Shown in pieces: positions 21,342 through 28,915 of a stretch of DNA of 64,000 nucleotides (positions are counted from its first letter, which is position 1; every line of letters begins with the position of its first letter). The DNA lies in the NCBI RefSeq assembly GCF_000427335.1, contig NZ_ATMR01000215.1, forward strand, positions 1 through 64,000, in the 5' to 3' direction. The stretch comes from Winogradskyella psychrotolerans RS-3 (GTDB lineage: Bacteria > Bacteroidota > Bacteroidia > Flavobacteriales > Flavobacteriaceae). A model generated the notes under the pieces. That model saw nothing but the letters and a program-made list of their open reading frames with translations. It searched no databases and was not told the origin of the DNA. Made by a program: the position numbers and the translations under genes.

Positions 21342-21959
21342 ATGAAAAAACTATATAGTGTAATACTTAAACCCCTATTCGATTTTTTAATAGCACTTGT
21401 TGGACTCTTAATTATTTCTCCTTTATTTATATTTTTAATTATTAGTCTTTTTATACTTAATAAAGGCAAACCATTCTTTTATCAATTAAGAGCGGGAAAA
21501 AATGGAAAATTGTTTACTATCATTAAGTTTAAAACCATGACAGATAAGACGGACAACCAGGGTAACTTGTTGCCAGCCATGGAACGTGTGACTAAAATCG
21601 GAAAAATTTGCAGAAAATTATCATTAGATGAATTACCGCAATTAATTAACATTTTAAAAGGTGATATGAGCCTAATTGGTCCTCGACCATTATTACCTGA
21701 ATACCTTGAGCGCTATACTAATACACAGAACATGAGACATAATGTTTTACCAGGTATAACAGGTTGGGCTCAGGTTAATGGAAGAAATACTATTAGCTGG
21801 GAACAAAAATTTGAATATGACGTCTATTATGTAAAACATCAGTCTCTGCCTTTAGATTTTAAAATTATTCTCAAAACAATAGATAAAGTTATTAACAGAA
21901 AAGACATTAATAATTCTGAAACTTTAGATATGCCAGAGTTTAAAGGTACTAAGGCATAA
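21342..21959 (+). CDS. Polyprenyl-phosphate sugar phosphotransferase (PglC/WcaJ family), initiating enzyme
   Basis: 205 residues, the short monotopic form. One N-terminal re-entrant hydrophobic segment (~9-40), then FYQLRAGKNGKLFTIIKFKTM, the catalytic Asp-Glu dyad in LSLDELPQL, and ILKGDMSLIGPRPLLPEY and GITGWAQVNGRN, all diagnostic of bacterial sugar transferases (Pfam Bac_transf). Role: transfers a sugar-1-phosphate from a UDP-sugar to undecaprenyl phosphate, the first committed step of repeat-unit assembly. Short PglC-like members usually use a diacetylbacillosamine-type sugar, which fits the PglE and PglF-like genes downstream. In many relatives a PglD acetyltransferase sits next to it; here a reversed gene cassette follows instead. 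Confidence 0.9.
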   Translation: MKKLYSVILKPLFDFLIALVGLLIISPLFIFLIISLFILNKGKPFFYQLRAGKNGKLFTIIKFKTMTDKTDNQGNLLPAMERVTKIGKICRKLSLDELPQLINILKGDMSLIGPRPLLPEYLERYTNTQNMRHNVLPGITGWAQVNGRNTISWEQKFEYDVYYVKHQSLPLDFKIILKTIDKVINRKDINNSETLDMPEFKGTKA

Positions 21960-21972
21960 CCGTTGCATTAAA

Positions 21973-22926
21973 CTACCTCATGAACTTCCTAAATGGCCAA
22001 ATTATAATAAATAAGATTTTAATTAAAAAGGAGTCTATAGACTTTATGTATGCCTTTAAAGGATAATCGAGATACTTAGATGATCGAAGAGTTATGTACG
22101 CTGTTTTTAAAAAGTAAATAGGTGCTTTATAGAAGTACTTACCTAAAAACCAATTATTTATAGCTAAACCATTAAATACTATTCCGAAAGCACTTTTTGA
22201 AGTCATTGGAGTATTCATAATAGAATCTTCAACACCAACATGGTATATGCGTAGCGTTTTATTAACGCATTTAGTTAGAAACCCCATTCTGGCTACAGTA
22301 TTCCATATTATGCTTTCTGGAATAAAACCGAAAGTTAGCATGTAAGGATGAATATTTATATTCCTTAATACCTCTGTCTTTGTAAAACCCCATTTTTCTC
22401 CGGATATCTTATTTGTAATCGCTGCCTCAAATGTATTACAATAAAAAGGGTCTTCAGGAAATAGATTTCCAATAGGATTACCATATTGGTCTTCACAATT
22501 AACAGTTATCGCTGCAACTTTAGGCTTTAACTCATTAGGTATTTCCTTATACTCATTATTAAAAACTTCCAAAGTATTTGGATAACATTCATCATCACCA
22601 TCAAACGGAAGTAAGAATTCACCTTGAGCCAATGCTATGGATTGAATGAAACAACTCATCTTGTGTTTATTCTCTTTATTATTGACATAATGAATGTTGA
22701 GAGGAGAAGTCTCTATAATTTGTGTAATAACATCATGAGACTTATCCGTAGAAGCATCGTTTATAATAAGCCATTCAAAGTCTTTGTAAGTTTGATTCAA
22801 TAAGGAATCATGAACTTTTTTTATAGATTTTTCACAATTAAAAACGGGAGTAAATACAGTAAACCTATACTTAAAAAGCAATGGTGTCTTTTCTTTATAT
22901 GTAGGCATTAAATCCTTAAAATTCAT
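21973..22926 (-). CDS. Glycosyltransferase family 2
   Basis: 317 residues. The GT-A domain begins around residue 22: FTVFTPVFNCEKSIKKVHDSL, EWLIINDASTDKSHD, then the metal-binding DGDDE region (LLPFDGDDECYPNT) and the acceptor-side motif SGEKWGFTKTEVL. The C-terminal ~80 residues are rich in hydrophobic and basic residues (ILFIIIWPFRKFMR) and probably attach it to the membrane. It is encoded against the direction of the surrounding locus, as the last gene of a three-gene reversed cassette, and ends 14 bases from the stop of the initiating transferase (convergent). Sugar specificity is unknown. Confidence 0.85.
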   Translation of the reverse strand: MNFKDLMPTYKEKTPLLFKYRFTVFTPVFNCEKSIKKVHDSLLNQTYKDFEWLIINDASTDKSHDVITQIIETSPLNIHYVNNKENKHKMSCFIQSIALAQGEFLLPFDGDDECYPNTLEVFNNEYKEIPNELKPKVAAITVNCEDQYGNPIGNLFPEDPFYCNTFEAAITNKISGEKWGFTKTEVLRNINIHPYMLTFGFIPESIIWNTVARMGFLTKCVNKTLRIYHVGVEDSIMNTPMTSKSAFGIVFNGLAINNWFLGKYFYKAPIYFLKTAYITLRSSKYLDYPLKAYIKSIDSFLIKILFIIIWPFRKFMR

Positions 22927-23075
22927 AATAAGTACATATTAAATAGCATTAGTTATAAGTAACGGTTATTTATAACAACCTTAGATAAAAATCTAATTAT
23001 TTAAAAAATAATCTCGCTAATAAGACTATCGATCATTTTTATTGAACTAAGTAACAGTGTCAAATGAAATAAAAA

Positions 23076-23732
23076 CTATTCAATATTTATATCCTTTATA
23101 GACATGATCCATTCCATTGGTTGGTTTTCAGGAGTCATAAATTTATGTGATTCAAAATGAATATTTCTACCATTATCTATTAATGCAACGCTTTTCCATC
23201 CTAAAGTATTTGGTGCTAAAAAATCCTTTTTCAAATTGTCTGCTATATAATAATATTCTGCGCCTGTTAAAGCGTTTTCAATAGCTTCAAAATTGGCTGA
23301 ACTTGGCTTTTCAGAACCTATTTCTTCAGATATAATTATTTTATCAATATAGTTTAAAATACCAAGGCTTAGTAATTTTGCTCGTTGTGTTTTAGATCTG
23401 CCATCAGTGATGATTCCTATTTTACCATTTTTAGATTTGATTGCGTTAAATACGTCTAATACCCCTTCAAACAATTCAATATCCGGATGATGATCTCTAT
23501 ACATAGCAACTAAAAATCCAATTTCAGTTTTGTGGGTCGTAGAAAGAAATTCAAAAACATTATCCTTGCATCTATAAAGTGAAAACATTTTAGAATATAA
23601 GGCTTTCCAATCCCCGGGATCTAAAAATTCAGCAATCTCCTTATAAGCAGACCTCAAATAATCTAATTCATTGTACAGCGTATCGTCTAAATCAAAGACT
23701 ACCACGGTATTTTTATTAATCTTTATATCCAT
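23076..23732 (-). CDS. HAD-family hydrolase
   Basis: 218 residues. Haloacid dehalogenase motifs in order: VVVFDLDDTLYNE (Asp14 nucleophile, Asp16), IITDGRSKTQRA (motif II Thr), EEIGSEKPSS (motif III Lys) and YYIADNLKKDFLAP (motif IV Asp). Most such proteins are phosphatases of small metabolites, for example sugar phosphates. Its start overlaps the end of the ATP-grasp gene by 17 bases, so the two are almost surely co-translated and probably act in one pathway. The 149-base gap to the GT2 gene downstream holds no obvious hairpin. Confidence 0.85.
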   Translation of the reverse strand: MDIKINKNTVVVFDLDDTLYNELDYLRSAYKEIAEFLDPGDWKALYSKMFSLYRCKDNVFEFLSTTHKTEIGFLVAMYRDHHPDIELFEGVLDVFNAIKSKNGKIGIITDGRSKTQRAKLLSLGILNYIDKIIISEEIGSEKPSSANFEAIENALTGAEYYYIADNLKKDFLAPNTLGWKSVALIDNGRNIHFESHKFMTPENQPMEWIMSIKDINIE

Positions 23733-24687
23733 GTACTAAAACTTCATCATCATAACGAATCATTAATAAATCACTTTCCCAAGCATCAAATTTTTCTTCT
23801 ATTGATTTATCATATAAATATTCCTCAATAATCCATTTCGTAAAATTTGCACCTGAAAGATAAGATAAGGGATAACCTCCACCAAATCGAGGGTTGATTT
23901 CAATAGCATAAATCTTTTCATTATCATCTTTATGCAAAAAAAACTGAGCCGTAAGACATCCAACGGCACCATTTATTTTGTTCAAGTTTTTCTTTATATA
24001 AGGAACCAAAGAATTTCTGACTGTCAATGCCTTATAAACCTCTCCATCTCTAACCTCTATCCGTTTTCTTGGCACCACACATTTTAATATATGATCTTTG
24101 CTAAAATATAAATCACATGTAAATTCATCATATTCTTCATGATCTATATACTCTAAAAACATTAACTTTTCATTACTAAAATGATAGTCTGTTAGATCTT
24201 CTTTTGTTCGTATTAAATATGTATCCACGCTCCTACTTCCATCTATAGGTTTAATAAAAAGTGGCAAACTGTAATTGTCTTTTTCGTATTCTTTAGCCAC
24301 ACTAACATTATGGGATTCAAAAAACTGATGTATTACACGTTTGTTTCGACACTTAGAAACAAAATCAACCGACGAAATCACAACTTCAATACCTTCCTGC
24401 TTAAATTTTTCTTTATTTTTTGCCAACTCAAGTAGTTCAGTATCTATTGTTGGAACAATCAAAGAAATATTATGTGTTTTACAAAAATTGATTAAAACGG
24501 AAATATAATCAGGCGCATCTAATCTTGGCACTTTAAAAAAGCCATCAGCGATTTGGCAAGCAGCAGATAAAATAGGATCAGCATCTGTAGCAAAAACTTT
24601 ACTGTCTTTATTGATTTTATTGATTTCTTTTTGAAAGGATCTTATAAGCGAAACTCTACGTCCTGCTGAAGTGATTAAGATATTCAT
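23716..24687 (-). CDS. ATP-grasp family ligase (carbamoyl-phosphate-synthase-like)
   Basis: 323 residues. A pre-ATP-grasp Rossmann domain starts NILITSAGRRVSLIRSF and includes PTIDTELLELA; the ATP-grasp domain has LFIKPIDGSRSVDTY, LEYIDHEEYDEFTCDLY and YAIEINPRFGGGYPLSYLSG, where the E-x-N-P-R-x-G-G motif binds Mg-ATP. Family chemistry is ATP-dependent joining of a carboxylate to an amine, thiol or similar group. In polysaccharide loci such ligases may attach amino acids or make modified sugar precursors. It leads the reversed cassette and overlaps the HAD gene. The actual substrates are unknown. Confidence 0.82.
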   Translation of the reverse strand: MNILITSAGRRVSLIRSFQKEINKINKDSKVFATDADPILSAACQIADGFFKVPRLDAPDYISVLINFCKTHNISLIVPTIDTELLELAKNKEKFKQEGIEVVISSVDFVSKCRNKRVIHQFFESHNVSVAKEYEKDNYSLPLFIKPIDGSRSVDTYLIRTKEDLTDYHFSNEKLMFLEYIDHEEYDEFTCDLYFSKDHILKCVVPRKRIEVRDGEVYKALTVRNSLVPYIKKNLNKINGAVGCLTAQFFLHKDDNEKIYAIEINPRFGGGYPLSYLSGANFTKWIIEEYLYDKSIEEKFDAWESDLLMIRYDDEVLVHGYKD

Positions 24688-25087
24688 TTTATCGATTTAA
24701 ATTACGTTTTTTAAACACTTTTATAATGTTATAAATATAATATAGTTAGCATTATCATTGTTAAAAAAAAGAGATTAAGATATGAAAAATTAAAAGTCAA
24801 GTCAAGTTAAGTTACATATCTATTTTTTAAAACAGGCAACTCAAATGTAAGGTTTTTGACATAATTATACGATTAAGGCAATTCAAAAAATTATCATAGA
24901 TCAAATGGATTATAATATTCACTACTTTTGCCAAAATAAAAAACGTAATTATCTGCTTTTAATCGTTTTATTAGGGTTAACCCAATATAAAAACGCATAT
25001 TTACCTATTAAATTAGATCGTGTCCCAGATCCCTCTAATGACATGAAATTGAATAGTAATAGCATAATTACTTAACAATTTTTACGT
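24688..25087. other. 400-base divergent intergenic region
   Basis: Lies between the reversed ATP-grasp gene and the plus-strand aminotransferase. It holds a minus-strand -7-like box (CAAATGTA at 24842-24849, reading TACATTTG on the minus strand), a plus-strand TACTTTTG at 24923-24930, neither with a convincing -33 element, and a 56-codon open frame at 24905-25075. The short tandem GTCAAGTCAAG lies near 24800. Confidence 0.45.
24905..25075 (+). CDS. Possible 56-residue small protein upstream of the aminotransferase
   Basis: ATG at 24905, stop at 25073-25075. The product has a basic stretch (CQNKKRN) followed by a short hydrophobic helix (YLLLIVLLGL) and a polar tail. It ends 12 bases before the aminotransferase start and so could be its leader gene. 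I recognise no family. There is no clear Shine-Dalgarno-like sequence, which is normal in Bacteroidota. It occupies the place where a PglD-type acetyltransferase would be expected but does not resemble one. It may simply be chance. Confidence 0.2.
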   Translation: MDYNIHYFCQNKKRNYLLLIVLLGLTQYKNAYLPIKLDRVPDPSNDMKLNSNSIIT

Positions 25088-26215
25088 ATGAAACCTAAAA
25101 TATGGCTTTCATCACCACATATGAGTGGTAATGAACTATCTTATATCAATGAAGCTTTCGAAACCAACTGGGTTGCACCACTAGGACCAAACGTCAATGG
25201 TTTTGAAAGTGATTTACAATCTTACCTTAACGACAATCGACATGTTGCAGCATTAGCTTCTGGTACATCTGCTTTACATTTAAGCCTAATTATGTTGGGC
25301 GTTGGCATTGGAGATGAAGTGATTTGCCAAAGTAAAACATTTTCTGCTTCGGCAAACCCGATAGTCTATCAAGGAGCTTCGCCTGTTTTTGTGGATAGCG
25401 AAAGAGACACATGGAATATGTGCCCAGAACAACTAGAAATCGCTATTAAAGACAGAATATCAAAAGGAATAAAACCTAAAGCTATCATCGCTGTACACTT
25501 ATATGGTATGCCTTATAAGGTTGATCAGATTAATGAAGTTGCTTTAAAATATAGTATACCTGTTATAGAGGACAGTGCAGAATCCTTAGGAAGTTTATAT
25601 AAAGGTAAAAATTGTGGTACGTTGGGAGATTTCTCTATACTATCATTTAATGGAAATAAGATTATAACAACTTCTGGAGGAGGTGCTTTAGTTACTAAAA
25701 GCAAGGAACTTAAACAAAAAGCTGTTTTTTTAGCAACTCAAGCTAGAGATGATGCTCCACATTACTTGCACTCGCAAATTGGATATAATTACAGAATGTC
25801 TAATATTGTTGCTGGTATTGGCCGTGGACAAATGACAATATTAGATAGCCATGTTGCAAAACGTCGTTCAAATCATCAATTTTATTTTGATGCTTTTAAA
25901 CACAATAACAGAATCACTTTTCTTCAAGAACCAGAAGGTTATTTTTCTAACCGCTGGCTATCTTGTATTCTCTTAGATTCTAAAGAGACTCGTGAGAATT
26001 TAAGATTGGCATTAGAAAAAGAAAATATTGAATCTAGACCGTTATGGAAACCAATGCATCAACAACCGGTTTTTGAAAAGTATCCTAGTTACCTTAATGG
26101 TGTTTCTGATGAGTTATTTGAGAAAGGTTTATGTCTGCCTAGCGGGTCAAATCTTACTGATAATGAATTAGAAAGGATAGTTTTAGCGATAAATGCGTAT
26201 TTTGTAACATGTTAA
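25088..26215 (+). CDS. DegT/DnrJ/EryC1 aminotransferase (PglE-like)
   Basis: 375 residues, complete. SGTSALHLSL (phosphate-binding part), VIEDSAESLGSLY (Asp that contacts the PLP ring) and SFNGNKIITTSGGGA with the PLP lysine at Lys191 are all present; the N-terminal LSSPHMSGNELSYINEAFETNWVAP (residues 7-31) is the classical opening of PglE-type enzymes. Role by family: amino transfer to C4 of a UDP-4-keto-6-deoxy-GlcNAc, giving a 4-amino-4,6-dideoxy sugar. Its presumed substrate is made by the dehydratase encoded immediately after it; the two genes overlap by 7 bases. Confidence 0.9.
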   Translation: MKPKIWLSSPHMSGNELSYINEAFETNWVAPLGPNVNGFESDLQSYLNDNRHVAALASGTSALHLSLIMLGVGIGDEVICQSKTFSASANPIVYQGASPVFVDSERDTWNMCPEQLEIAIKDRISKGIKPKAIIAVHLYGMPYKVDQINEVALKYSIPVIEDSAESLGSLYKGKNCGTLGDFSILSFNGNKIITTSGGGALVTKSKELKQKAVFLATQARDDAPHYLHSQIGYNYRMSNIVAGIGRGQMTILDSHVAKRRSNHQFYFDAFKHNNRITFLQEPEGYFSNRWLSCILLDSKETRENLRLALEKENIESRPLWKPMHQQPVFEKYPSYLNGVSDELFEKGLCLPSGSNLTDNELERIVLAINAYFVTC

Positions 26216-28102
26216 TTAAACTTCTGAATAAAATATCGACAAAATATGCCTCCAAATGGCTTGTACTGTTATTCGATGTAATAATTGTAATAGCTTCATT
26301 TTTCTTGGCCTATTTAATACGATATAATTTTCAGATAGATTTTGACTTTACAAACCTATTAAACCAAGTACCATACGTCGCAATTATTGCAGCTATTAGC
26401 TTTGTTGCTGTTGGATCGTATAAGGGAGTCGTTAGATTCACAGGATTTAAAGACATTGTAAATATTATTATCGGAGCAAATATATTAGCTACTATTCTAA
26501 TATTTTTTACGTTTTTAAGTAGAAAAATGCTTGGTGATAACAGTATTTTTAATTTACCTGGATCTATTATTTATATTAACTTATTATTAAATATCTTATT
26601 GCTCATTGGAGCTAAGCTATTTATCAAATCTATTTATAACCATATAACTCAAGATTTTCAATCAGTCTCTAATGTTTTAATTTTTGGAGCCGGAAACTCT
26701 GGCATGTTAACTTACGATGCTATTCAAAATGACACTAAAAGCGGCTTAGAAGTTGTCGGTTTTATTGATGATGATGAACGTAAAATAGGAAAAAAATAAA
26801 CTTATTAAGAGTTTATAGTATTGAATCTATTACAGAAGATTTTATTAAAATTAATGATGTTGAAGACGTTATAATTTCAATTCAAAATATTGATCCTACG
26901 CGATTGCTTCAAATTACGGGGAGTCTTTTTTCTTTAGGTCTTAAAGTTAAAATTGTACCTCCTGTCCAAAGTTGGATAGATGGAGACCTAAGTGTTGGTC
27001 AAATAAAAGAAGTTAAAATTGAAGATTTACTAGGCAGAGATCCTATTAATATAAAAAATCCTGATTTAGAACACCAATACGACAATAAAGTTATTTTAAT
27101 AACTGGTGCTGCAGGCTCTATTGGAAGTGAGATTTGTAGAAAGGTAAGTTTATATAACTATAAGAAATTAATATTAGTAGATAATGCAGAGTCTGCACTC
27201 TACGATATACAACAAGAATTTAGACAACTAGGTTTAGAGAATATTGAAGCTATTGTTGCTGATGTTCGTAATCGAACGAGAATAGACCAACTATTCAATC
27301 TATATAAACCTAAAATAATTTTCCATGCAGCGGCTTACAAACACGTTCCGTTAATGGAGAACAACCCATTTGAAGCGGTTAGTGTTAATATTGGTGGCAC
27401 TAAAAATGTTGCAGATATAGCCGTAAAACATAGTGTTGATAAATTTGTTTTAATTTCAACGGATAAAGCAGTTAATCCAACAAATGTGATGGGAGCAACT
27501 AAGCGAATAGCTGAACTGTATGTAAGCTGCCTAAAAGGAAAAGGACACACAAAATTTATAACAACTAGATTTGGAAATGTTTTAGGTTCAAATGGATCTG
27601 TTATTCCTTTATTTAAAAACAAATAGACAAAGGAGGCCCTTTGACAGTAACTCATAAAGATATTACTCGTTATTTTATGACAATCCCAGAAGCTTGTCAA
27701 TTAGTATTAGAAGCTGCAGCTATGGGTAATGGTGGTGAGATTTTTGTCTTTGACATGGGAGAGCCAATTAAGATTTTTAGTCTAGCCACAAACATGATTA
27801 TTTTATCTGGCTTAAGATATCCTGAAGATATTGATATTAAAATCACAGGTTTAAGGCCTGGCGAAAAGATTTATGAAGAGCTTTTAGCTGATGGCGAGAA
27901 CACTAAAAAAACATATCATGATAAAATAATGATTGCAAAATCAAGACATGTAGATATTAGTAATGTAGAAAAACAAATTAATAAGCTCACCGCAATAAAC
28001 TCGTTAACCCAGCCCTTAGAAATTGTATCTTCAATTAAGCAGTTAATACCTGAATATATCTCTAATAATTCAACATATGAAGTGTTGGATATAAAAAAAT
28101 AA
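26209..28102 (+). CDS. Long-form nucleotide-sugar 4,6-dehydratase (PglF/CapD-like), two frameshifts
   Basis: Open pieces 26209-26799, 26904-27626 and 27641-28102 make one protein of about 631 residues once one A is added to the runs at 26790-26796 and 27615-27619. The N-terminal ~150 residues hold four membrane helices, followed by a first Rossmann domain (NVLIFGAGNSGMLTYDAI). The catalytic domain has ILITGAAGSIGSEICRK (NAD binding), FHAAAYKHVPLMENNP and STDKAVNPTNVMGATKR, the Met-containing active-site motif normal for this long subgroup, and ends with ITGLRPGEKIYEELL. Role: converts UDP-GlcNAc to UDP-4-keto-6-deoxy-GlcNAc at the membrane. Overlaps the aminotransferase gene by 7 bases. Confidence 0.88.
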
Positions 28103-28138: not shown

Positions 28139-28915
28139 ATGAAAACCCGTTTTCTCATCATCTCAGTATTATCAATCTTTATTGCCACTTCATGTGGTTC
28201 TCGAAAAGATTTTATTTATTTCCAAGATGAACCTCTTTTAGAAGGACAGCTTTCGTCTGAACCAACTGAATTAACTTATAAGCCTGACGATATATTAACT
28301 ATTAATGTAACCGCATTAGACCCAGCCACCGTTAGTCCGTTTAATTTACCTGCAGTATCACATAATACTTCAGATTTATTAAGTGCTCAAGGAGGACTAA
28401 CTCAACAAACTTATTTAATTGATTATAATGGTAATATTGAGTTTCCAGTTTTTGGAACGCTAAAAGTTGAAGGGCTTACACGGTCAAAATTAACTACTAT
28501 GTTAGTTGAGCGTATTAGCACCATGGCAAAGGATCCTATTGTGAATGTTCGATTAGCAAATTTCACCATAACCATTATTGGAGAAGTTAGCAGCCCCGGA
28601 ACTTTTACCATGCAAGATGAAAGAGTAACCATTTTAGAAGCATTGGGTTATGCTGGCGATTTAACCATCTTTGGAAAACGAAAAACGATTAAATTAATAA
28701 GAGAAATTGATGGAAAAAAGAAGTTTGCCAATATTGATTTAACGTCAATTAATTCAGTTAACTCACCGCTATATTATTTACAGCAGAATGACGTCATATA
28801 TGTTGAACCTAATAATGCTAAAATACGCTCTTCAACATACAATCAAAACAATGGTGTCTTAATCTCTGCTATTGGTACGCTAACTACAGTAATCGCTGTA
28901 TTCTTAATAAAATAA
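28139..28915 (+). CDS. wza: Wza-like outer-membrane polysaccharide export lipoprotein
   Basis: 258 residues. A lipoprotein signal peptide ends in the lipobox IATSC (Cys20), so the mature protein is lipid-anchored. TYKPDDILTINVTALDP starts the Poly_export domain, followed by LIDYNGNIEFPVFGTLKVEG and VNVRLANFTITIIGEVSSPG, the last opening a SLBB domain. A C-terminal hydrophobic helix (LISAIGTLTTVIAVFLI) ends the protein, as in many Bacteroidota homologues. Role: forms the outer-membrane export channel together with the Wzc-type protein encoded 26 bases downstream. Confidence 0.9.
   Translation: MKTRFLIISVLSIFIATSCGSRKDFIYFQDEPLLEGQLSSEPTELTYKPDDILTINVTALDPATVSPFNLPAVSHNTSDLLSAQGGLTQQTYLIDYNGNIEFPVFGTLKVEGLTRSKLTTMLVERISTMAKDPIVNVRLANFTITIIGEVSSPGTFTMQDERVTILEALGYAGDLTIFGKRKTIKLIREIDGKKKFANIDLTSINSVNSPLYYLQQNDVIYVEPNNAKIRSSTYNQNNGVLISAIGTLTTVIAVFLIK

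Follow-up and report, generated by a model that had tools for sequence, protein, structure and literature searches.

A putative ATP-grasp/HAD cassette akin to that of Neisseria pglB2 loci occupies the place of PglD in a PglC-PglE-PglF locus of Winogradskyella psychrotolerans RS-3

A 64,000 bp stretch of the W. psychrotolerans RS-3 genome (RefSeq contig NZ_ATMR01000215.1, positions 1 to 64,000; here called the window) was found to carry overlapping genes for an ATP-grasp ligase and a HAD phosphatase-like protein in a PglC-PglE-PglF locus where a gene for the acetyltransferase PglD might be expected. On balance, this pair appears to be an N4-acylation cassette that takes over from PglD, like the one in Neisseria pglB2 loci. 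The first sugar in this organism probably bears an unusual acid cap, other than acetyl, on its 4-amino group, and glyceric acid is slightly favoured as the acid. The pair thus joins a kind already known from Neisseria, a precedent that was not named in the original prediction for this DNA.

The locus begins with the gene for a PglC-type initiating phosphoglycosyltransferase of 205 aa (coordinates 21342–21959, + strand; PF02397 (Bac_transf), E 4.2e-62), followed on the – strand by genes for a GT2 glycosyltransferase (21973–22926; PF00535, E 4.6e-23), the HAD phosphatase-like protein (23076–23732; PF13419, and TIGR02253-like below the cut-off) and the ATP-grasp ligase (23716–24687; PRK12767.1-4-like, with a PylC-like N-terminal domain). 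Further genes on the + strand encode a PglE-type sugar 4-aminotransferase (25088–26215; DegT, PF01041), the best solved relatives of which are 1o61 and 4ztc, which we take to be Campylobacter PglE, a PglF-type UDP-GlcNAc 4,6-dehydratase (26209–28102; PF02719) and a Wza-type export lipoprotein (28139–28915), an ORF named from its sequence without a family search. The reversed GT2, HAD and ATP-grasp genes of the original prediction were all confirmed, as was the 17-base overlap of the ATP-grasp and HAD genes. A Wza-like gene lies downstream of PglE-PglF in most of the related loci read, and this neighbour suggests an exopolysaccharide or capsule cluster.

The dehydratase ORF is in three pieces (26209–26799, 26904–27626 and 27641–28102), the frame changing near 26,800 and again near 27,620, and PF02719 matches the two C-terminal pieces (E 5.2e-70 and 1.2e-38). 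As the frames of Wzc and a glycosyltransferase at 14.9–16.0 kb of the window are similarly broken, the breaks are likely to be assembly indels, and in L048, the nearest relative, the gene is intact and encodes 633 aa. The 400-base gap between the divergent ATP-grasp and PglE genes (24688–25087) may provide room for two promoters. The motif TANNTTTG, presumably a promoter consensus, occurs there at 24842–24849 (–) and 24923–24930 (+), but was not taken as evidence, as its 100 occurrences across the window are not above the 106 expected by chance.

The window ATP-grasp scored 373.7 bits with model NF009405, just under the cut-off of 390, as did two Neisseria proteins (380.1 and 386.8 bits). Used as a query, it matched one protein per genome, 43–48% identical, in 25 of the 46 genomes from the genus of N. 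weixii. In a tree, 26 relatives from the window's family (taken to be Flavobacteriaceae; window included), a Segatella protein and the 25 Neisseria proteins formed one group (support 100/97), with 15 divergent ATP-grasps of the same family falling outside it; five of six plasmid loci are included, the ATP-grasp of the Palleronia record (L140) having been lost in ORF picking. Residues K146, E216, E263, N265, R267 and D313 are invariant in 14 sequences. This protein is regarded as a putative, and quite probable, N4-acyl ligase acting on a UDP-4-amino sugar.

In the available text of two papers, PglB2, through its ATP-grasp part, is credited with placing a 4-glyceramide instead of a 4-acetamide, giving GATDH (PMC11130364, PMC6959607), though the second puts forward what the PglB2 C-terminal domain does as a proposal. 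The eight Neisseria loci read have the order transferase, ATP-grasp, HAD (7/8), formyltransferase-type gene (4/8), aminotransferase, dehydratase, and the transferase adjoins the ATP-grasp in all 25 genomes, being fused to it in a single 527-aa protein in G156. Counting NeuD proteins over the cut-off at any genomic position, 5 of the 25 ATP-grasp-positive Neisseria had one, versus 19 of the 21 negative ones (p 1.5e-6), which suits a ligase that is an alternative to PglD. N. polysaccharea ATCC 43768, which according to a figure legend makes diNAcBac (PMC6959607), carries no such ATP-grasp, and its NeuD domain is in a 418-aa frame joined to a transferase. As in these pglB2-type loci, the window has, at one locus, an ATP-grasp of this clade, a HAD partner, and genes for a 4-aminotransferase and a 4,6-dehydratase (the dehydratase frame being broken). 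Its PglC gene is on the other strand and three genes off, whereas the distance is two genes in L048 and the transferase is the next gene in L058. The window PglC itself is 49–58% identical to the Neisseria transferase that adjoins the ATP-grasp or is joined with it in one protein, and 53–54% identical to the transferase of two PglB-type fusions; as both kinds are matched about equally, PglC does not tell pglB2 from PglB type and was discarded as a marker.

In 25 of 26 family loci (window included), the HAD gene directly follows the ATP-grasp gene in the same orientation and overlaps it each time (14 times by 17 bases), so that the arrangement in the window is more than chance; gene starts were set by longest ORF, and the longer overlaps could stem from this choice of start codon. 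Of the 149 family genomes, 27 contain the HAD: every one of the 26 that carry the ATP-grasp and, as one weak match, 1 of the 123 others (Fisher 3.5e-28). In Neisseria it was found in 25/25 ATP-grasp-positive versus 0/21 other genomes (Fisher 1.4e-13). Both values ignore kinship among genomes and so overstate independence. A Neisseria HAD searched against the window's genome found the window HAD best (1.7e-31; next 0.003); identity to the HADs of Neisseria is only 31–38%, and D14, D16, K142, D165 and D170 are invariant in 12 homologues. The gene is linked to the ATP-grasp in 23 of the 25 Neisseria genomes. It is present but unlinked in the genomes G121, G153 and G163, where an oxidoreductase gene, a weak DUF3617 match and a pyruvate kinase gene, respectively, are neighbours, and these three contexts gave no clear clue to the substrate. 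The coupling of HAD to ATP-grasp is the useful part of this result. There is about an even chance that the HAD supplies or dephosphorylates the acid, acting on the acid or on its ligated form, and as a likely acid source it would account for a step not addressed in the available text of the PglB2 papers (PMC11130364, PMC6959607). From its position in other Neisseria, and not from its own sequence, we infer that ORF8 of N. meningitidis is a HAD of this kind.

In the proposed pathway, PglF and PglE would convert UDP-GlcNAc to UDP-2-acetamido-4-amino-2,4,6-trideoxyglucose, as established for their families. Given the chemistry of ATP-grasp enzymes and the precedent in Neisseria, the ATP-grasp would activate a small carboxylic acid as an acyl phosphate and join it to the 4-amino group, the most likely product being a 4-glyceramido sugar or a similar hydroxy-acid amide. 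The HAD might release free glycerate from phosphoglycerate, or remove the phosphate after ligation, and PglC would load the capped sugar-1-phosphate onto undecaprenyl phosphate, where it would begin a polysaccharide destined for export. Such a cap may decide whether the sugar is accepted by later glycosyltransferases.

The cap could be a different acid, though this is unlikely; candidates would be an amino acid or, among hydroxy acids, malate or 2-hydroxyglutarate for example. ATP-grasps with the same N-terminal domain (PF21360) include the amino-acid ligase PylC, but the curated PylC model scored only 28.7 bits on the window protein against a cut-off of 248.3. Amides of 2-hydroxyglutaryl or dihydroxyhexanoyl groups occur on such sugars in polysaccharides of Flexibacter maritimus and Flavobacterium psychrophilum (PMC3210612, PMC6519341), but the available text of the latter credits a PglD homologue plus an acyl carrier protein, rather than an ATP-grasp, with the dihydroxyhexanoyl case, and also shows that R groups influence antigenicity. 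The closest group with a reported product in the papers available is that of Neisseria, with glyceric acid. The prediction that the ATP-grasp adds a non-acetyl group to the 4-amino position is supported by a ligase in PglD's place and by Neisseria loci with the same clade and HAD between transferase and aminotransferase/dehydratase, but the amino acid it suggested is not favoured. Nor would the modification be unprecedented, given PglB2 and the non-acetyl N4-acyl groups of Flavobacterium and Flexibacter. A literature search for ATP-grasp with PglC, and with flavobacteria and LPS, found no paper; one for ATP-grasp and glyceric acid returned, among others, an ATP-grasp described, in the text available, in a Clostridium polysaccharide cluster.

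Alternatively, the cassette may serve another sugar or substituent of the polysaccharide, leaving the first sugar with a free 4-amino group or acetylated in trans, though this is a rather improbable reading. No NeuD/PglD acetyltransferase gene lies between PglC and PglE in the window, as it would in a PglD-type diNAcBac module, so the absence that had been predicted holds for the locus but not for the genome, where a single NeuD/PglD-family protein exceeded the curated cut-off (contig C12; 180.9 versus 160.8 bits). Among solved structures it is closest to VioB (5.1e-21) and, nearly tied with that, to a pilin-glycosylation acetyltransferase (6.8e-21), and its sequence does not decide whether it is the missing PglD. 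However, its gene overlaps by 4 bases an aminotransferase gene whose best model is DesI-type (under cut-off) and whose best solved relative is 2po3. Because of this overlap it more likely serves that aminotransferase than the window locus, and a PglD homologue elsewhere, which the original prediction had set against itself, exists but was rejected as the missing enzyme.

A missing PglD is not unusual in itself, as 89 of 117 PglE places in the 149 family genomes lack a NeuD gene at a distance of 3 kb or less, though NeuD can lie directly upstream of PglE (e.g. L137). These counts use 34 NeuD places near PglE, others on the same contig being at least 16 kb away by eye. NeuD and ATP-grasp were found together at 1 of the 117 places against 3.6 expected (p 0.11), and in that one (G094) the ATP-grasp is of the divergent type; as exclusion within the family is not significant, it was not used as evidence. 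As for relatives carrying both the cassette and a PglD, also raised in the original prediction, NeuD is present somewhere in 15 of 26 ATP-grasp-positive genomes and 52 of 123 others (p 0.19), but at none of the four places with a window-type ATP-grasp near PglE does one lie within 6 kb.

The reading in which another sugar is served draws further on the ATP-grasp/HAD pair being a separate, reversed unit, and on PglE lying within 3 kb of the ATP-grasp in only 4 of 26 family loci and more than 3 kb away in 22, which weakens any argument from local linkage. PglC is within two genes of the ATP-grasp in 13 of the 26. Nine loci show neither PglE nor PglC over as much as 19 kb, so their ligases may act on other amino sugars. 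Against this reading, the pair is in a single gene run with transferase and aminotransferase in Neisseria and in Priestia (DegT-PglC-ATP-grasp-HAD, genes overlapping). Segatella has PglC, ATP-grasp, two glycosyltransferase ORFs, HAD, then an aminotransferase.

Four genomes have the cassette no more than 1 kb from PglE; it is reversed in three of them and co-directional with PglE in the fourth (G014, locus L058), and the GT2 gene, absent from L048, is an extra gene outside the conserved pair. A function for the reversal was accordingly rejected. Although this orientation, the lack of GT2 in L048 and the location of most family copies elsewhere would suit a chance insertion unrelated to the PglC-PglE-PglF pathway, this is very improbable, as G013 and G014 also have the pair between PglC and PglE, G069 has it next to PglE, the same set of functions occurs in Neisseria, and PglE is present in 26/26 ATP-grasp genomes of the family versus 90/123 others (p 7e-4; in L116 its frame was lost to a reverse-strand ORF in ORF picking but found by tblastn).

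N4-acylation of the first sugar is the preferred reading. More tentatively, the pair may be a mobile, phylum-crossing module that amide-caps surface sugars in Bacteroidota, Neisseria, Bacillota and Alphaproteobacteria, and its HAD may be a phosphatase dedicated to phosphoglycerate or another phospho-acid and indispensable to the ligase. If so, this would fill in how the acid is provided in the Neisseria glyceramide pathway, a step so far missing, and glyceramide sugars would be predicted across many uncharacterised polysaccharides. The link between the window and Neisseria cassettes would give a sequence rule predicting glyceramide versus acetamide at the start of a polysaccharide.

Among known systems, the Campylobacter and Neisseria diNAcBac module of the PglD or PglB type shares the PglC, PglE and PglF enzyme types with the window locus, which lacks the acetyltransferase. 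The R-group modules of F. psychrophilum O-polysaccharide (Qui2NAc4NR) likewise include pglE and pglF, with exchangeable genes setting the N4-acyl group, but in the available account use a PglD homologue and acyl carrier protein (PMC6519341) where the window has ATP-grasp and HAD. In related genomes, a divergent ATP-grasp (NF009404, PRK12767.1-3) also takes PglD's place in the PglC-PglE slot, as in L086 (PglC-ATP-grasp-PglE-PglF), but is only 27–28% identical to that of the window, belongs to a separate clade, and had no HAD of the window kind within two genes in any of the 15 loci read. The Neisseria pglB2-ORF8 system (GATDH, 4-glyceramido-2-acetamido-trideoxyhexose) shares the ATP-grasp clade, transferase family, HAD partner, aminotransferase and dehydratase with the window, where, however, transferase and ATP-grasp are separate proteins, the pair runs in reverse alongside an additional GT2 gene, and the setting is a Wza/Wzc-type polysaccharide cluster in another phylum.

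In the window, where the cluster looks like one of the exopolysaccharide or capsule type, the originally predicted arrangement was borne out in gene set, strands and overlap. Forward-strand genes for a PglC-type initiating transferase and a PglE-type aminotransferase, both within 21.3–28.1 kb, enclose reverse-strand GT2, HAD (23076–23732) and ATP-grasp (23716–24687) genes, the last two overlapping by 17 bases, and a forward-strand PglF-type dehydratase gene (26209–28102) is followed by genes assigned by reading to the Wza and Wzc types. The best solved relatives of the aminotransferase, 1o61 and 4ztc, are presumably Campylobacter PglE. The dehydratase reads as three pieces with two frame changes, and the Wzc-type kinase (28.9–31.3 kb) and one glycosyltransferase (14.9–16.0 kb) are broken in a similar manner. 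The nearest relative (L048) has an intact 633-aa dehydratase and an intact 793-aa Wzc, and the three broken frames in the window are likely assembly indels.

The accessible text of a review (PMC11130364) describes PglB, an acetyltransferase joined to a transferase, as leading to diNAcBac, and PglB2, an ATP-grasp joined to a transferase, as leading to a glyceramido acetamido trideoxyhexose (GATDH); the two are given as mutually exclusive, with a pglB2-ORF8 fragment inserted. In the accessible parts of a second paper, the PglB2 C-terminal domain is proposed to transfer glyceryl instead of acetyl, giving a 4-glyceramido sugar, a figure legend (Fig. 4) lists a GATDH glycan from N. oralis, and for pglB2-type loci a supplementary legend mentions further genes that include a HAD hydrolase and a formyltransferase, with N. 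oralis accessions (PMC6959607).

This precedent was tested by searching with the window ATP-grasp in five Neisseria genomes, two of which were positive, and then in 46 genomes of the genus, 25 of which gave one match each (43–48% identity). A PglC-family transferase directly adjoins the ATP-grasp in all 25 (23 by ORF labels and two by tblastn, residues 40–202), and in one genome (G156) the two are fused in a 527-aa protein. The order in eight loci read at length was transferase, ATP-grasp, HAD (7/8), formyltransferase-type gene (4/8; supported by Pfam in two loci and by clustering in the other two), aminotransferase and dehydratase. In a tree of 71 ATP-grasps (26 from the window's family, presumably Flavobacteriaceae, 25 from Neisseria, 15 divergent family members and five from plasmids), the family, Segatella and Neisseria sequences formed one group (100/97) apart from the divergent group (100/100); treekit flagged long branches in the divergent group and at the Priestia row. 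Counted genome-wide, an acetyltransferase of the NeuD/PglD family (NeuD) scored above cut-off in 19 of the 21 Neisseria genomes that lack the ATP-grasp versus 5 of the 25 that have it, in agreement with the reported PglB/PglB2 split. The only named strain here tied to reported chemistry, N. polysaccharea ATCC 43768, is without the ATP-grasp; its NeuD domain shares a 418-aa frame with a transferase, and the strain is reported to have diNAcBac (PMC6959607). The window pair is a new, predicted member of the PglB2-type glyceramide cassette. The suggestion that the pair makes or attaches something other than acetyl at the 4-amino group was right in kind, but an amino acid is probably the wrong acid, as the Neisseria precedent is glyceryl.

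Co-occurrence gives a strong new hint of a role for the HAD in the chemistry. Orthologues of the window ATP-grasp (identity at least 49%) were found in 26 of 149 genomes of the window's family, its own included, and the HAD was the next same-strand gene in 25 of these loci, overlapping in all 25 and by 17 bases in 14, based on longest-ORF starts. A HAD-only search found the same 26 genomes and one weak match (G119, 9e-14). In Neisseria, the HAD was found in the same 25 genomes as the ATP-grasp and in none of the 21 others. The Fisher values (3.5e-28 in the family, 1.4e-13 in Neisseria) are overstated, as the genomes are related and not independent. However, the HAD is present though unlinked to the ATP-grasp in three genomes (G121, where it lies elsewhere in the genome, and Neisseria G153 and G163), which argues against mere hitch-hiking. 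In G163, the gene is directly before a pyruvate kinase gene (L305, 7825–10478). With a Neisseria HAD as query, the best match in the window's genome was the window HAD (1.7e-31; next match 0.003).

HAD residues D14, D16, K142, D165 and D170 were kept in 12 of 12 aligned homologues and ATP-grasp residues K146, E216, E263, N265, R267 and D313 in 14 of 14; we take these to be catalytic from general superfamily knowledge. A ligase requires the free acid, and as glycerate is scarce in free form while phosphoglycerates are abundant, the HAD may act on phosphoglycerate, or on the phosphate after ligation.

Several results in the family tell against this reading. PglE was within 3 kb of the ATP-grasp in only 4 of the 26 family loci and PglC within two genes in 13, and nine stretches had neither. 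PglE was present in 26/26 ATP-grasp genomes versus 90/123 others (p 7e-4), an enrichment that could partly be due to genome size or polysaccharide richness. Near the pair in L050, L057 and L058 is a protein of ~690 aa, the three copies falling into a single cluster; both copies scanned (L050 and L058) have a HAD domain at the N-terminus, TIGR02253-like in L058.

Among plasmids, tblastn with the ATP-grasp found 113 records and the HAD search 36, so most of the former, largely more distant, are without such a HAD. A HAD was the next gene in five of six annotated records examined and came after two glycosyltransferase ORFs in the sixth, Segatella; in a seventh, unannotated record (H3), the HAD search placed a match next to the ATP-grasp. 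In Segatella copri (L138, 5655–6002), a 115-aa ORF between PglC and the ATP-grasp, 35 residues of which match the NeuD C-terminal part (49%, 3e-6), could be what is left of a PglD that was replaced. In Palleronia and Ensifer the pair comes after a formyltransferase gene, and in some Neisseria before one; across these distant phyla, the loci with a formyltransferase-family gene after or before the pair are L292, L293 and L298 (Neisseria) and L140 and L143 (Alphaproteobacteria), and in L294 (Neisseria) it accompanies the ATP-grasp alone.

The predicted lack of PglD holds at the window locus, where no NeuD/PglD-family gene was found; the genome has one member above cut-off, on contig C12. There, in a second glycan locus, its gene overlaps another aminotransferase gene by 4 bases (L009, 1480–3194), and the two may be VioA/VioB-like. 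The best model for that aminotransferase is DesI-type, below its cut-off, and it also matches the 2po3 chain; the best solved relatives of the NeuD are VioB, with a pilin-glycosylation acetyltransferase nearly tied. Chiefly because of its aminotransferase neighbour, this NeuD more likely serves a different 4-amino sugar.

PglE orthologues (E ≤ 1e-80) were present in 116/149 family genomes, at 117 places after one partial place (G041:C43) was excluded. The textbook order PglC-NeuD-PglE-PglF exists (L137), yet is absent from most PglE places; NeuD was within 3 kb upstream in 28. The PglC-PglE slot is modular, elsewhere holding a divergent ATP-grasp, FemAB- or GNAT-type transferases, or a deacetylase-like or dioxygenase gene (family searches, single representatives). 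FemAB-like, GNAT (Acetyltransf_6), TauD-like dioxygenase and deacetylase-like proteins were seen there in L079, L080, L082, L097, L106 and L126, suggesting further undescribed N4 caps. The divergent ATP-grasp (NF009404) was within 6 kb upstream of PglE at 10 places (L078, L079, L081, L083, L085, L086, L090, L091, L102 and L116), mostly directly after PglC, and no window-type HAD was found beside it in the loci read. NeuD was within 6 kb of PglE in 30 places and an ATP-grasp of either clade in 14; both occurred in one (G094, NeuD below cut-off) versus 3.6 expected, so exclusion at the slot was not significant (p 0.11). Nor was it seen at genome level in the family (NeuD in 15/26 with the ATP-grasp versus 52/123 without, p 0.19).

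The original view of the cap as unprecedented was mistaken, given PglB2 in Neisseria (PMC11130364, PMC6959607, as accessible). Non-acetyl caps are also already a known trait in flavobacteria: in the accessible text of the sources, the R groups that Qui2NAc4N carries in Flavobacterium psychrophilum are specific to the strain and are attributed to homologues of PglD together with an acyl carrier protein (PMC6519341), and a sugar of this kind bears a 2-hydroxyglutaryl amide in Flexibacter maritimus (PMC3210612). A literature search, for which many journals were out of reach, found no publication on the ATP-grasp/HAD pair in flavobacteria or assigning the HAD a role. The window locus adds a probable ATP-grasp/HAD route to such a cap.
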